Below, in pieces: positions 6,600 to 19,041 of a stretch of 64,000 nt of DNA. Position 1 is the stretch's first letter. Each line of letters opens with the position of its first letter. Below the pieces are notes generated by a model, which was given only the letters and a program-made list of their open reading frames with translations, had not been told where the DNA came from and did not search any database. Source of the stretch: Senegalia massiliensis (GTDB lineage: Bacteria; Bacillota; Clostridia; Tissierellales; SIT17); contig NZ_QXXA01000001.1 in assembly GCF_009911265.1 (NCBI RefSeq), forward strand, positions 1 through 64,000, read 5' to 3'. The position numbers were made by a program, and so were the translations under genes.

Positions 6600-7381
6600 A
6601 TAAGATAATAATATGTGTTCCTATAGAAATTAAAAAATTTCTAAGTTCTAAAACACTTTTAATAACAATGATTGGACTTATGATACTACCATTTGTAGGT
6701 GGATTTTTTATGATTATATTAAAAGATCCAATAGTAGCACAAAAGATGGGTATTATTTCTACAAAAGCTCAAATCTTAGGATCTAATGCAGATTGGCCTT
6801 CTTATTTTAGTTTGCTTACACAAGGTATTTCACTTGGAGGACTAGTTGTTTTTGGATTTGTTACTAGTTGGGTTTTTGGAAGAGAATACTCAGACAGAAC
6901 AATTAAAGATTTACTTGCACTACCTATATCTAGAAATGTTATTGTAATCTCTAAATTCATTGTAATTTTTCTATGGTGTATGGTTCTTTCAAGATTTGTA
7001 TTTTTAATGGGTATATTTGTTGGTAAAATTATTCGTCTACCTGGCTGGTCTTTAGAAGTTTTATTTTCAAGTAGTATTATATTTTCAATATGTTCATTAC
7101 TTACGATTTTATTGTCTACACCAGTTGCATTTTTTGCGAGTTTTGGTCGTGGATATTTGTCACCGTTAGGATTTATGATACTCACCCTCATACTTTCACA
7201 AATAGTTGCTGCTATGGGATTTGGTGAATTCTTTCCTTGGTCTATACCTGCCCTTGCAAGTGGTATTGCAGGTAAAGGGAGTGCAGTTCTAACAAATACT
7301 AGTATAGTTATTGTTTTTTTAACATATTTAATTGGATTGATAAGTACTATGTTCTGGTGGAGATATGCTGATCAGGATTAG
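6596..7381 (+). CDS. ABC-2 type transporter permease
   Basis: A 261-aa membrane protein with six hydrophobic segments (about 17-40, 74-95, 116-140, 156-178, 186-205 and 231-252) and the ABC-2 motif FGREYSDRTIKDLLALPISR after helix 2, typical of permeases that pair with a BcrA-like ATPase to export peptides or drugs. Its ATG overlaps the ATPase stop (ATGA), with GGAGGGGG just upstream. It depends on the adjacent ATPase, whose gene carries a frameshift. Confidence 0.88.
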   Translation: MNKIIICVPIEIKKFLSSKTLLITMIGLMILPFVGGFFMIILKDPIVAQKMGIISTKAQILGSNADWPSYFSLLTQGISLGGLVVFGFVTSWVFGREYSDRTIKDLLALPISRNVIVISKFIVIFLWCMVLSRFVFLMGIFVGKIIRLPGWSLEVLFSSSIIFSICSLLTILLSTPVAFFASFGRGYLSPLGFMILTLILSQIVAAMGFGEFFPWSIPALASGIAGKGSAVLTNTSIVIVFLTYLIGLISTMFWWRYADQD

Positions 7382-10864: not shown

Positions 10865-10972
10865 ATGTCAGGATATAATAGAGGTTGTGGAGTTGATAGT
10901 GAATTATTATTCTTTTTCCTATTACTTGTAGTATTATTTAGTCAGTGCTATGGAGGGTATGGAGACTGTTAA
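10865..10972 (+). CDS. YjcZ-like small hydrophobic sporulation-type peptide
   Basis: A 35-residue product: a Gly/Cys/Tyr-rich start (MSGYNRGCGVDSE), one hydrophobic helix (LLFFFLLLVVLF) and a short Gly/Tyr/Cys tail ending GGYGDC. This is the layout of the YjcZ/YrbG-like small spore proteins of Firmicutes. A strong AGGAGG lies at 10852-10858. Three cysteines may cross-link it in the spore coat. Homology is judged by composition only, so function is tentative. It supports a spore-forming host. Confidence 0.65.
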   Translation: MSGYNRGCGVDSELLFFFLLLVVLFSQCYGGYGDC

Positions 10973-11084: not shown

Positions 11085-11303
11085 AAAATATATAATTTAA
11101 TTATTCCTAAAGATAATATCCTTAGACAAATAAATGGAATGATTGATTTTTCATTCGTTAATGATGAATTGGTTGCAAAATACTGTTCTGATAATGATAG
11201 AGCTGCAATTGATCCACTAAGAATGTTTAAATATCTTTTTTTAAAAGTGATTTATCAGATGTAGGTGTTGTAGAGCGTTCTAGATATGGCACCAGAATAA
11301 GGA
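11085..11303 (+). mobile_element. IS1182-family transposase fragment
   Basis: The N-terminus of a DUF772/IS1182-type transposase is readable: IIPKDNILRQINGMIDFSF, AAIDPLRMFKYLFLKVIYQ. After a frameshift comes LSDVGVVERSRYG, then MAPE-stop. The DDE domain is missing and the gene is dead. No terminal inverted repeats are identifiable apart from the adjacent long palindrome. Confidence 0.7.
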
Positions 11304-13268: not shown

Positions 13269-14285
13269 ATGTATAAACCAAGATTTAAAGGGACGCACTA
13301 TGAAATGGGAAATCACTATGGAAAACTATTAAAAAAACACCAAGTTGATTTGTCACCATTGCTGAATTTCAACACTGAAAGAATTGATATGGGAAAGAAA
13401 TCTTTAAAAATATGTGAAATCATATATCCTGAGATTATTGATGAAATCCGGGGGATGGCAGAGGGGCTATCTGTTGACTATTTAAAATTGGGAACGTTTT
13501 TAATAACAGCAGGAGCCTATTCATTTGATGTGGGCTGCACAACTTTTGCATATATTGAAGATGACGAAGTTTATTTTGTTAGAAATCATGACATGTTTGT
13601 TCAACTTAGAAAGACCACAGAAAGCGCCTTTTATAAACCTAATAAAGGGAATGTTTTTTTAGGTCATGGAGATAGCTTGATAGGAAAAGAAGATGGAATA
13701 AATGAACATGGTTTAGCGGTAGGAATGACTTTTGTAGCACCTAGAACAATACAGCCAGGTTTGAATTTTTTGATGATTGTGAGAATGTTATTGGAAAAAT
13801 GTAAAGATGTTGATGAAGCGATTAAACTGCTTGAGAACATACCATCAATGACCTCACAGTGTTTTATATTGGCAGATTCATTAGGACACTTAGCAGTTGT
13901 AGAAATGTGTCCAGATCATATGGCAGTCAGGTATCCTAAATCCGATGAAAGATTTATTGTTGCTACGAATCATTTTATTAAAAAAGAAATGAAAAAATTT
14001 GATTGTAAGCCAGAAGAGAACTGGTATTCAACATTAGACCGTTATGATACTGTCACTAAAAATCTGCAAAGTGGAAGAGACTATTCAAGAGAATTAGGTA
14101 TAGAAATTGCATCTGGGAAAAGAGGATTTTTATGTCAATATGATAAAAAGCTTTCTTTTGACACTTTATGGTCTGTGAGTTATCATTTGAACACTCTTTC
14201 TATAAAAAGAGCAGAAGGGAATCCTAGACGAGCGAAGTATAAATTTGACTATCGCCTGGAAAAATTGAAGAATGAATTACTATAA
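13269..14285 (+). CDS. C45-family peptidase / acyl-CoA:6-APA acyltransferase-like NTN hydrolase
   Basis: A 338-aa protein of the penicillin acyltransferase-like (peptidase C45) family of N-terminal nucleophile hydrolases. The family opening KGTHYEMGNHYG (8-19), the nucleophile segment DVGCTTFAYIEDD around residue 88 and RNHDMF around 105 are present, as is the later GLAVGMTFVAPR. In this family the chain is cut before the Cys, which then hydrolyses amide bonds of beta-lactams, N-acyl amino acids or bile-salt-like compounds. Substrate unknown. AAGGAGG precedes the ATG. It probably forms an operon with the AraC/GyrI regulator 48 bp upstream. Confidence 0.85.
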   Translation: MYKPRFKGTHYEMGNHYGKLLKKHQVDLSPLLNFNTERIDMGKKSLKICEIIYPEIIDEIRGMAEGLSVDYLKLGTFLITAGAYSFDVGCTTFAYIEDDEVYFVRNHDMFVQLRKTTESAFYKPNKGNVFLGHGDSLIGKEDGINEHGLAVGMTFVAPRTIQPGLNFLMIVRMLLEKCKDVDEAIKLLENIPSMTSQCFILADSLGHLAVVEMCPDHMAVRYPKSDERFIVATNHFIKKEMKKFDCKPEENWYSTLDRYDTVTKNLQSGRDYSRELGIEIASGKRGFLCQYDKKLSFDTLWSVSYHLNTLSIKRAEGNPRRAKYKFDYRLEKLKNELL

Positions 14286-14611
14286 AACCATATCTAGAGC
14301 ATGGAAAACTAAAGAGTCTCAAATTTCACAAATATGATTGCGTTGTAAAGAACACTGATAGAATAAGAAAAATTAATATAAAGTGGTGGAGTTTTTGAGA
14401 TAAGAAAACTAAAGAAATACTTAGATGGATTAAGAAACTGATCAATGGAGAACCCTATAAGAGTAAGCAGAATACCCTATTGTGATAGTTTTCAATAAAA
14501 ATAGTGAAAATTCCCCATAATCTGAGTATAAAGATTCATATAGTAAACTTATAAAAATAATGTAGGAAATTGTAAAAAGTTGAAAAATTCATAAGATTTG
14601 CAAAAATAATC
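14286..14611. other. Intergenic region without visible gene
   Basis: Only short broken frames are seen between the C45 gene and the precursor-peptide promoter (one reads TKEILRWIKKLINGEPY, origin unknown). No terminator with a clear T tract was found. Confidence 0.4.
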
Positions 14612-14640
14612 TTGACTTTTGATAAATGCTTTAATATAAT
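14612..14640 (+). promoter_or_regulatory. Strong promoter of the precursor-peptide gene
   Basis: TTGACT (14612-14617), exactly 17 bases, then TATAAT (14635-14640). It is close to consensus and about 70 bases from the peptide ATG, as expected for a highly expressed precursor. Confidence 0.75.
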
Positions 14641-14709
14641 ACATATATACATCATGGGATAATGCAAAAAGAGGTAGAACGTCATACTATACTAGGGGGT
14701 GAAAGTATA

Positions 14710-14826
14710 ATGAAAATGAAGCCAATTATTGAATCAAGTTGGAATTTACAAAATGTAGCTAATCAGGAGAGTTCAGAAATGGGACCAATGATAGGAATTG
14801 GTAGTCAGTTTTGTTGTGCTTGCTAA
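14710..14826 (+). CDS. Putative RiPP precursor peptide (38 aa)
   Basis: A 38-residue peptide with a clear leader/core split: a polar leader (MKMKPIIESSWNLQNVANQ), then ESSEMGPMIGIG and a C-terminal core SQFCCAC carrying all three cysteines. It has a strong ribosome site (AGGGGG, about 11 bases before ATG), a near-consensus promoter at 14612, and is followed by a terminator at 14890 and then a radical SAM/SPASM protein. This arrangement (short Cys-tailed peptide, leaky terminator, rSAM maturase) is typical of radical-SAM-modified peptides such as sactipeptides, ranthipeptides and the Cys-rich clostridial peptides. The exact family and modification are not recognisable from sequence alone. Confidence 0.7.
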   Translation: MKMKPIIESSWNLQNVANQESSEMGPMIGIGSQFCCAC

Positions 14827-14889
14827 GTTTAGTAAAGTAATTTAGCTTACTTTCTTGCTGAATATTTAATTCAAGAAAAGCTAAGTTAC

Positions 14890-14941
14890 AAAACCCTTCT
14901 ATCACAATAATTCAAATTGTTCAGTGATAGAAGGGTTTTTA
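14890..14941 (+). terminator. Terminator/attenuator between precursor and maturase
   Basis: AAAACCCTTCTATCAC (14890-14905) pairs perfectly with 14924-14939 around an 18-base loop and runs into T5. It would stop most transcripts after the peptide gene, giving more precursor than enzyme. Confidence 0.85.
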
Positions 14942-15124
14942 TCATAAATAACATTCATTGAAACATTTTGCTTATTGTATTTCTTGGCAATGTGAGTTGT
15001 TGCGAAATTATGTATGCGCTATAAACTTAATGGAGATGATGGGTATTTGTCTTATATATATAGGACATTCCCGATAAACATGGGACTTGATTAATATAAC
15101 AATCAGTTTTAGGGAGGGAAAGTA

Positions 15125-16510
15125 ATGAAATTAATTAAACACATGATATTTGTAGACATACACGATAACAAAAAACTGCTGATAAACTCTTTAACAGGCA
15201 CTATGGATGAAATTGATGAGCCTATTTACAAAACCCTGTCCAGATGGCAGGATTGTGAAGAGATTGTAACAGAAAATGATTTGGAGGATGAGTTATTGAG
15301 TAATCTTCAATCTAGGGGATATCTGGTAAATAACTACGAAGAGGAAGTAGCTAAAAAGAATGAAATTTTAAAGGTATTGCGTAACCAGCACGTTCAAAGG
15401 CAAAAAGACCAAAGAACTGCCGTCTTTGTTATGACTTATGACTGCAACTTCAGATGTCCTTATTGCTTTGAGGGGGATGCCTATCTTAAAAAACAGGTTA
15501 TAACTCCGACACAAATTGATGCTGCCTTAAAGCTCGCAGGTGAGGGCGTGCAGACAATATGTCTTTTTGGAGGAGAGCCGTTGCTTCCAAAAACTAGACC
15601 CGCTTTGGAACATCTTTTTAATAAAGCTCCCGATAAAATATATCAAATTTTTACCAATGGGTATTATCTGACAGAATTCCTTGATTTGCTTTTGTCTATA
15701 AATATTTCTCAAGTTTTAATAACTTTAGATGGAAGTGAAGAGTCTCACAATAGTAGGAGGATATTAGCTAATGGAAAGCCTACATTCAAAAAAATTATGG
15801 ATGGTGTGGAGAAATGTCTAGAAAGCGGGATGAATATTCGAATTAGAATGAACCTTGAGAAAAGCAATTACAAGGAAGGAATTAATTTAAGAGAAAATCT
15901 GCTTGAAAAATTTTCGGAATATAAGGACAACTTATCATTTGAATTAACCACACTAGTTGGAGACTCTTATAATGAACGAATTGATATAATGACTGAAATA
16001 TATCTTTCAGATATAAATTACTCATTCGAGGATAGGGAAAGAAGAAACAATTTTATAACTAAAAAGAATTCAATACTAGATCACTTAGTGTATGGTAGAG
16101 GCATAAATCCTTTGTACTCTTATTGCTACGCCCACGTAGATGGGATGGCATTTGACCCCTATGGAGATATTTATCCATGTTTGGGTTGTGTTGGCAATGA
16201 ACGCTTTTCTATAGGAAAGTATTATCCTTTAATTGAGTTCAAAGAAAATTCAATACGTAACCGTAACATAGAAAAAATTCCTGAATGCAGGGATTGTACA
16301 TATTCTCTTCTTTGTGGAGGAGGATGTCCTTTGAAGTTAGATGGAAACGGTGATTTTTTCAAGCCTGTGTGCTATTCCGTCAAAACTCTTTTGCATAAGG
16401 AACTTCCTTTATTTTATAGAGAAAGGGAAGAAGCTATGAAAAAAAATGAGGAAATAGTAAATAGTGATGATGGATATAACGAGAACTCGTATCGGAGAGA
16501 AGCTTACTAA
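15125..16510 (+). CDS. Radical SAM/SPASM peptide maturase
   Basis: The 461-aa enzyme has an N-terminal leader-binding-like segment (1-90), a radical SAM core with the CxxxCxxC cluster motif CNFRCPYC (C107, C111, C114), LFGGEPLL and TNGYYL strands (about 155-180), and a C-terminal SPASM domain rich in Cys (YSYCYAHVDG, GDIYPCLGCVG, PECRDCTYSLLCGGGCP, VCYS; about 340-420) for auxiliary Fe-S clusters. Enzymes of this type install thioether or other cross-links on Cys-rich peptides. The nearby 38-aa peptide is the obvious substrate. The ATG follows GGGAGGG. It resembles clostridial Cys-rich-peptide maturases, but subfamily assignment needs profile searches. The last ~15 residues look like an appended tail. 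Confidence 0.9.
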   Translation: MKLIKHMIFVDIHDNKKLLINSLTGTMDEIDEPIYKTLSRWQDCEEIVTENDLEDELLSNLQSRGYLVNNYEEEVAKKNEILKVLRNQHVQRQKDQRTAVFVMTYDCNFRCPYCFEGDAYLKKQVITPTQIDAALKLAGEGVQTICLFGGEPLLPKTRPALEHLFNKAPDKIYQIFTNGYYLTEFLDLLLSINISQVLITLDGSEESHNSRRILANGKPTFKKIMDGVEKCLESGMNIRIRMNLEKSNYKEGINLRENLLEKFSEYKDNLSFELTTLVGDSYNERIDIMTEIYLSDINYSFEDRERRNNFITKKNSILDHLVYGRGINPLYSYCYAHVDGMAFDPYGDIYPCLGCVGNERFSIGKYYPLIEFKENSIRNRNIEKIPECRDCTYSLLCGGGCPLKLDGNGDFFKPVCYSVKTLLHKELPLFYREREEAMKKNEEIVNSDDGYNENSYRREAY

Positions 16511-18054: not shown

Positions 18055-19041
18055 TTAGTATTGCCTATCTATATACGCCCATAAAGGCAAGACAAGATTT
18101 GTATCCGTTAATTTATTATGGTATTCAATAGGAGAATACATATTATTATCAAACTTAACCTTATGGTTCATATTATAATTTCTAATGAATTTTTGAAATT
18201 GAATTTTCAGTTGTTCAAATGACATATCATTATAAATAAGTGGCATTAGAAAGGATATGCAACAATTAGTATATTGTTTTCTTAAATCATTGATCCTTTC
18301 TAAATCATCATTCCTCTGAAGAATATGTATATTTACATCAAATCCATTGTCTTGAATGACTTTATTAATCTTTGATTCAAAAATGTTCTTATTTTGTTTA
18401 ATTAATTTTGAATCTTGAAAAAAGCATAAATAATTAGTGTTAAAATTCAGGGTTTGTGCTACAGGTATAGCAACGGCAGATAATAAATCTTCAAAATGAC
18501 TTAAAGATATATTTTTATATAGTCTTGTACAGGATATTCTACTTTTAAAATCAAATAACGTATATTCATAAAGGTTACCTATATTTTTAAAATATCCATA
18601 ATTTGTTATCCAAAACAGCCAGCATTTTCCGCTTTCTATATCTCTTAAAGAAGGAAGGATACTAACAATTTTATTTTCCTTCTTTTTGGCAAATTTTATT
18701 CTACTTTCCTTATTGGTCAGCTGGTGCCTTTTCATGACATTAAAAACTGCTGATTCGCTTATATCATGCCCCAATTCTTCTAATAAATATTTAATCGCTT
18801 TAGGACCATATTTAGGATAGGTTTTAAAAAGTCTAATTAATACATTTTCTATTTCAGTACTTGTTTTATTGATAGGAACAAAATTTTTCTTAATATGATC
18901 TAAACCTTCGATACCTTTGGTTTCATATCTTTTTAGCCAACGATAATAAATGGTCCTTGAAATATTATATTTTCTACAAGTTACACTGATACCATTTTTT
19001 TGTCCTTCCATTATGATATTAAATTTAAGGTTTTTGTTCAT
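18055..19041 (-). CDS. Transposase-derived protein, DDE residues apparently lost
   Basis: A 328-aa protein with an N-terminal double winged helix of the IS481/IS3 kind (NIIMEGQKNGISVTCRKY, ISRTIYYRWLKRYETKGIEGL; then YPKYGPKAIKYLLEELGHDI) followed by an rve-like region (NIGNLYEYTLFDFKSRISCTRLYKN). In true IS481 transposases the core reads QIDxKY, then QTDNGxEF, then a Glu. Here the corresponding places are FWITNYG and FFQDSK, and no late Glu motif is clear, so the catalytic triad seems lost while the frame is intact. No terminal inverted repeats flank it. It has its own GGGGG ribosome site and forms an operon with the flavoprotein. A domesticated DNA-binding regulator is the likely reading. 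Confidence 0.7.
   Translation of the reverse strand: MNKNLKFNIIMEGQKNGISVTCRKYNISRTIYYRWLKRYETKGIEGLDHIKKNFVPINKTSTEIENVLIRLFKTYPKYGPKAIKYLLEELGHDISESAVFNVMKRHQLTNKESRIKFAKKKENKIVSILPSLRDIESGKCWLFWITNYGYFKNIGNLYEYTLFDFKSRISCTRLYKNISLSHFEDLLSAVAIPVAQTLNFNTNYLCFFQDSKLIKQNKNIFESKINKVIQDNGFDVNIHILQRNDDLERINDLRKQYTNCCISFLMPLIYNDMSFEQLKIQFQKFIRNYNMNHKVKFDNNMYSPIEYHNKLTDTNLVLPLWAYIDRQY

Follow-up and report, generated by a model that had tools for sequence, protein, structure and literature searches.

Within the 64,000-nucleotide stretch of Senegalia massiliensis DNA analysed here (the window; positions 1 to 64,000 of contig NZ_QXXA01000001.1), a 38-aa open reading frame ending in a cluster of cysteines lies upstream of a gene for a radical SAM/SPASM enzyme. 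This arrangement raises the question of whether the two genes encode a RiPP precursor and its maturase, as a first-pass annotation had proposed from the letters alone, and, if so, what the enzyme might do to the peptide and where the pair came from.

Layout of the cassette and its enzyme

The following features were assigned, in window coordinates.

14605..16475 (approximate limits of common DNA homology), + strand: horizontally shared cassette of promoter, peptide, terminator and enzyme (pairwise blastn)
14612-14640, + strand: sigma-A type promoter, TTGACT-17-TATAAT (hexamers conserved in nine aligned copies)
14695..14702, + strand: ribosome-binding site of the peptide gene, a G-rich (GGGGG-type) run before the ATG (aligned with GGGAGGTGA in relatives)
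14710..14826, + strand: putative precursor peptide gene, 38 aa, leader MKMKPIIESSWNLQN, tail GIGSQFCCAC (open reading frame list, conservation)
14890..14941, + strand: intrinsic terminator/attenuator between precursor and enzyme (hairpin 14890-14939, then a U-run)
14946..15124, + strand: enzyme-gene leader, 179 nt, with its own ribosome site (no known RNA family, no unusually stable fold)
15125..16510, + strand: radical SAM/SPASM peptide maturase, 461 aa (PF04055, E 7.9e-21; ten invariant cysteines; AlphaFold model, mean pLDDT 86.9)
15125..15409, + strand: predicted N-terminal RRE-like leader-binding region, residues ~1-95 (model; CteB/TigE alignment)
15443..15466, + strand: CxxxCxxC motif of the SAM-binding cluster, C107, C111 and C114 (invariant in 20/20)
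16124..16372, + strand: SPASM auxiliary-cluster region with seven invariant cysteines, 334, 352, 388, 391, 397, 401 and 416 (20 homologues)

The near-consensus promoter noted in the first-pass annotation agrees with the consensus at 11 of 12 positions, and TTGAC and TATAAT are kept in all nine aligned copies of the cassette; promoter-like matches in the region at large were not enriched (19 found, 18.5 expected). The peptide (MKMKPIIESSWNLQNVANQESSEMGPMIGIGSQFCCAC) has cysteines at residues 35, 36 and 38. An alternative in-frame start at 14662 would give a 54-aa reading, and the start at 14710 is favoured because of conservation and the ribosome site. Neither NCBIfam nor Pfam contained a family that matched the peptide, which places it outside all of their curated models.

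The strong terminator that had been described between the two genes was overlooked by a simple pattern scanner but was revealed by folding against shuffled sequences (-24.8 kcal/mol, z -7.1; 0 of 200 shuffles as good). Its stem, AACCCTTCTATCAC/GTGATAGAAGGGTT, is near-identical across all close copies of the cassette. In L013, a 58% relative, the order promoter, peptide, hairpin and enzyme is kept although the hairpin has an unrelated sequence, suggesting that it is important to restrict read-through. The fold of the 179-nt leader was not unusual (z -0.7), and a known RNA element between peptide and enzyme was rejected, all Rfam matches being sub-threshold and mostly to eukaryotic microRNAs.

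The cassette is flanked upstream by a C45 acyltransferase/hydrolase and an AraC regulator and downstream by an FAD oxidoreductase and an IS481-like transposase. An adjacent transporter or RiPP protease is therefore absent, as the first-pass annotation had observed. Peptide and radical SAM pairs lacking both are not unusual among sactipeptides and ranthipeptides; two- and three-gene loci are common for these and for cyclophanes (PMC9062424). The gene directly upstream of the cassette (13269-14285) encodes a C45 family autoproteolytic acyltransferase/hydrolase; it and the AraC regulator were rejected as cassette members, being common at this place only to the sister species G003. The IS481-like transposase (18055-19041) and a short transposase-like N-terminal remnant (11139-11264, by eye) flank the unit within ~4 kb of the enzyme. 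A 35-aa open reading frame at 10865-10972, MSGYNRGCGVDSELLFFFLLLVVLFSQCYGGYGDC, encodes a small peptide, hydrophobic and with Gly/Tyr/Cys at its ends, that matched no family.

Pfam recognized the Radical_SAM domain of the enzyme, while the SPASM model fell below its cut-off. The annotated SPASM radical SAM enzyme with a CNFRCPYC motif was nevertheless borne out by the cysteines, ten of which are invariant among 20 homologues: those of the motif (C107-NFR-C111-PY-C114) and the seven in the SPASM region. None of these homologues has a conserved cysteine in the linker before C334, leaving a CteB-like three-cysteine set at Aux I. Cys355 (16187-16189), three residues past C352, occurs in 10/10 close enzymes and is missing from all aligned enzymes that are more distant. 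No NCBIfam model reached its cut-off, the best being CefB (129/600 bits) and Clo7bot (119/600).

In the structural model, the N terminus forms three strands followed by helices. The model aligned with CteB over 394 residues, spanning 5-438 (Z 24.0, rmsd 4.7), and with TigE over 391 residues, spanning 1-435 (Z 21.3, rmsd 5.1). Because these matches begin at residues 5 and 1, the modelled N terminus appears to resemble the leader-binding regions of CteB and TigE. By Foldseek, the fit to CteB was loose (TM ~0.55, rmsd 9). Furthermore, anSME and ChlB matched the barrel and SPASM part, beginning at residue ~90, with similar Z (23-24), and hence fold alone cannot fix the chemistry. A role in defence was rejected, as the PADLOC matches were to viperin models only, over the radical SAM core.

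Conserved pairing, horizontal spread and ancestry

The enzyme was used as a query against named genomes and against whole genomes of the genus, order, class and phylum. We found 13 solo enzymes, 44-96% identical, and a homologous short open reading frame lay upstream of every one of them. Ten are close (82-96% identical, the enzyme of the window included); their peptides start 347-430 nt upstream of the enzyme, begin with MKMK, have Trp at position 11 and end in (F/W/Y)CC(A/E)(C/Y), and promoter hexamers, ribosome sites and terminator stem are likewise conserved in the close copies. For the three more distant solo enzymes, at 58, 48 and 44% identity, the spacing to the peptide is shorter and the peptides end in WCCEW, QCCLDDWAW and WCCAGDQYL. 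In the converse direction, a peptide profile run over 249 genomes of the order gave strong matches in exactly seven genomes, which are those holding a close enzyme (7/7), and two further weak matches that we attribute to chance. This co-conservation (13/13 solo enzymes, 7/7 genomes) supports the proposal of a precursor-maturase pair, for which conservation of the short open reading frame upstream of orthologous maturases had been named as a check. In-frame TGA codons of relatives were considered as selenocysteine and rejected; they act as ordinary stop codons where the C terminus is shorter.

Only M1, W11, C35 and C36 are invariant in the peptide alignment, and the leader follows the pattern MKxKPIIxxxWxLQ. 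The reading of three cysteines in the last five residues (FCCAC) is correct for this peptide, but the third is replaceable in relatives (WCCEY, WCCEW), and the conserved element is a vicinal Cys-Cys, usually after an aromatic residue, rather than three cysteines. An aromatic residue precedes the pair in 12 of 13 solo-enzyme precursors (the exception, L016, has Gln), and most of the precursors end in Cys, Tyr or Trp; candidate acceptor residues in the tails are few and variable. Values of pN/pS were 0.46 for the leader and 0.55 for the tail, against 0.20 for the enzyme, which shows, as far as sequence comparison over few peptide sites allows, weaker purifying selection on the peptide.

The DNA common to all nine close copies amounts to ~1.9 kb, from about the promoter to near or just past the enzyme stop; counted from the enzyme start, pairwise blastn alignments end near -510/-550 and +1340/+1449. 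The flanking genes of the nine copies differ, except in the sister species G003. Identity of the enzyme DNA exceeded that of rpoB in 36/36 genome pairs, and identity of the enzyme protein exceeded that of RpoB in 32/36; compared with G675, which belongs to another class, the enzyme is 83% identical and RpoB 66%. As only the ~1.9-kb unit is common to otherwise unrelated loci, and the enzyme is far more similar than RpoB, we conclude from these sequence comparisons that the two-gene unit has moved as one block between distantly related anaerobic bacteria, across classes. A phage or viral origin was rejected (no match in phages or viral contigs), and plasmids held relatives of only ~30% identity. 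A transposon-borne cassette with its own ends was also rejected, since common terminal repeats were not seen by eye and the ends vary between pairs; transposase fragments that were judged IS1182-like by eye accompany some copies (L047, L010, L037) and not all. No clean empty site was found in the genus, where G001 and G002 also lack the upstream flanking genes.

In a midpoint-rooted tree of 50 proteins, the 13 solo enzymes form one group (97/96), which branches from within the clade made up by the second radical SAM enzyme of larger clusters (support of 99/98 and 100/98 at the key forks), indicating that the enzyme is probably a stripped-down descendant; because the root was placed by midpoint, this direction is likely rather than proven. 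Clo7bot-like and SCIFF-type maturases sit in other clades, the SCIFF-type label being based on a true SCIFF peptide next to the maturase in L037. The larger clusters (L014, L015, L040-L044) contain two radical SAM/SPASM enzymes, one of them divergent, an ABC exporter, a W-leader Cys peptide and an M55 family protein (PF04951, E 3.2e-34; annotated as D-aminopeptidase). Their Cys peptides have an LIW-type leader, and some of the clusters contain repeated lipoproteins with an HExxH-like motif (by eye); they could specify D-residue-containing RiPPs. A search of the genome of the window found no M55 homologue, and an M55 protein was accordingly rejected as a needed partner. Elsewhere in the phylum, enzymes of ~30% identity (L071-L076) have short open reading frames ~140-300 nt upstream (e.g. 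L075, ~6650-6760) with ends like VAQCCSKSSKIIAGCHD. Two of these peptides were scanned against NCBIfam and none of its models matched, nor did either of two scanned enzymes pass a cut-off; these pairs appear to form a second, unnamed RiPP family with CC-containing peptides.

Candidate mechanism and rival explanations

Collectively, these observations lead us to favour, with reasonable though far from complete confidence, a minimal two-gene RiPP system in which the enzyme modifies the Cys tail of the peptide, most likely by thioether formation, and which is mobile as a block and descended from a larger cluster. The promoter would drive the precursor gene, and the strong terminator probably restricts read-through so that substrate is made in excess of enzyme, which may be expressed through read-through or from a weak promoter further downstream. 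The N-terminal RRE-like region is the predicted docking site of the conserved leader, SAM would be cleaved at the CxxxCxxC cluster, and the C-terminal tail of the peptide, as the presumed substrate, would be the target. There, at least one thioether link would most likely form from the invariant vicinal cysteines, with the substrate Cys bound, as in CteB, at the one coordination site left free on Aux I. The unit moves between anaerobes as a single block, and its ancestor was probably a larger cluster that also encoded an ABC exporter, an M55 family protein and another radical SAM enzyme. Leader peptides are bound by RRE-containing SPASM radical SAM maturases, many of which form thioethers (PMC8326336), and in PapB one auxiliary cluster binds the substrate thiol (PMC10470005). 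This literature and the anatomy of the enzyme, whose Aux I site, like the open one of CteB, has no conserved linker Cys, make a thioether from one or both vicinal cysteines the most likely product. MoaA, a non-thioether enzyme, also has an open Aux I site, which counts against this assignment.

A modification other than a thioether is the serious rival, one we hold to be rather unlikely. It could be a C-C or C-heteroatom link at the aromatic residue beside the cysteines, an epimerisation or a change of the C-terminal residue, with the dithiol left free, perhaps for a metal or redox role. The aromatic residue that precedes CC in 12 of 13 precursors is what gives chemistry at that position its weight, along with the mostly Cys, Tyr or Trp last residue; SPASM enzymes perform many chemistries (PMC8326336), and the larger clusters include an M55 family protein, annotated as D-aminopeptidase. 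On the other side, the invariant element is the Cys pair, the three-Cys Aux I set and the nearest solved homologue point to thioether-type enzymes, and the genome of the window has no M55 homologue.

The two remaining explanations deny the peptide its role as substrate. It might be a leader peptide or sensor that controls the enzyme gene by attenuation while the enzyme acts on something else, an improbable arrangement to which the shortness of the peptide, its end just before a strong terminator and the separate ribosome site of the enzyme nonetheless conform. Conservation at the protein level, however, takes the form of a motif at the N terminus and a fixed CC tail, separated by a stretch in which indels span whole codons, and not of a run of regulatory codons; the architecture persists in L013 despite the replaced hairpin sequence, and homologous enzymes of the larger clusters adjoin other W-leader Cys peptides and exporters. 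Lastly, a peptide outside NCBIfam and Pfam might be a chance open reading frame beside an orphan SPASM enzyme, but it recurs with every solo orthologue, in unrelated neighbourhoods, together with promoter, ribosome site and terminator, and the comparative data already refute such an accident. Thioether formation on a genuine precursor is thus the leading reading, and the compact pair with its tail of ~10 residues means that vicinal Cys-Cys chemistry could be read directly by mass spectrometry. The natural tail series FCCAC, WCCAC, YCCAC, WCCEY, WCCEW and QCCLDDWAW would map what the enzyme requires.

Comparison with known systems

Among curated families, CefB, the maturase of peptides with Cys at every fifth residue (NF038107), scored best and aligned with the enzyme end to end; its 129 bits lie far from the cut-off of 600, and the tail reads CCAC, not Cys at every fifth residue. 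Clo7bot (TIGR04333 peptides, TIGR04334 maturase) resembles the present system in its short precursor, brief N-terminal MKxxxKP-like motif and radical SAM/SPASM maturase, and its aromatic-Cys-x-A-Cys motif GWCNAC may be compared with WCCAC of the present family. It differs in having many precursors, spread-out cysteines and a separate tree clade; the peptide gave no match to TIGR04333, a model that does recover true members, and the enzyme scored 119 against a TIGR04334 cut-off of 600.

The SCIFF ranthipeptide system CteA/CteB (TIGR03973/TIGR03974), which is clostridial and provides the solved structure nearest by both sequence and fold, shares the RRE, radical SAM and SPASM parts and the three-Cys Aux I. 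Its precursor has six cysteines rather than three, the leader differs, and the enzymes are 18% identical; a SCIFF-type maturase, with a close relative in the same genome, is placed elsewhere in the tree. Scores against the SCIFF- and PapB-type ranthipeptide maturase models (TIGR03974, 73/425 bits; NF047865, 104/340) and the CcpM Cys-rich peptide system (TIGR04068, 63/500) were below cut-off. The first-pass annotation had allowed that the enzyme might cluster with anaerobic sulfatase maturases, which share the radical SAM and SPASM fold, and this did not prove to be the case: TIGR03942 gave 51/349 bits, less than CefB or Clo7bot, and anSME and SuiB supply an extra linker ligand to Aux I (fully Cys-ligated in anSME), which the present enzyme, with its RRE-like N terminus, lacks.

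The tandem radical SAM, M55 and ABC exporter clusters and the unit described here have in common precursor leaders with Trp after an xxIIxxxW or LxxLIW motif; the unit has no partner enzyme, M55 protein or exporter, and its tail is a short CC. It offers an evolutionary example of a RiPP cluster that apparently lost the exporter, the M55 gene and one of two maturases before spreading between bacterial classes. In the open-access literature we found nothing on Clo7bot, Tissierella RiPPs or vicinal-Cys radical SAM substrates, and a prior description elsewhere is possible. We put forward only tentatively the fuller reading of an undescribed RiPP family that is marked by a C-terminal aromatic-Cys-Cys tail and whose single radical SAM enzyme would make a cross-link or other change at a vicinal Cys pair without known precedent, with no dedicated export or leader peptidase, in a selfish-looking two-gene block reduced from an exported two-enzyme system. 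Two-gene radical SAM RiPPs are already known as a kind; what is new is that this family has no curated model, keeps its vicinal dicysteine tail invariant, apparently descends from a larger cluster and has spread horizontally as a minimal block.
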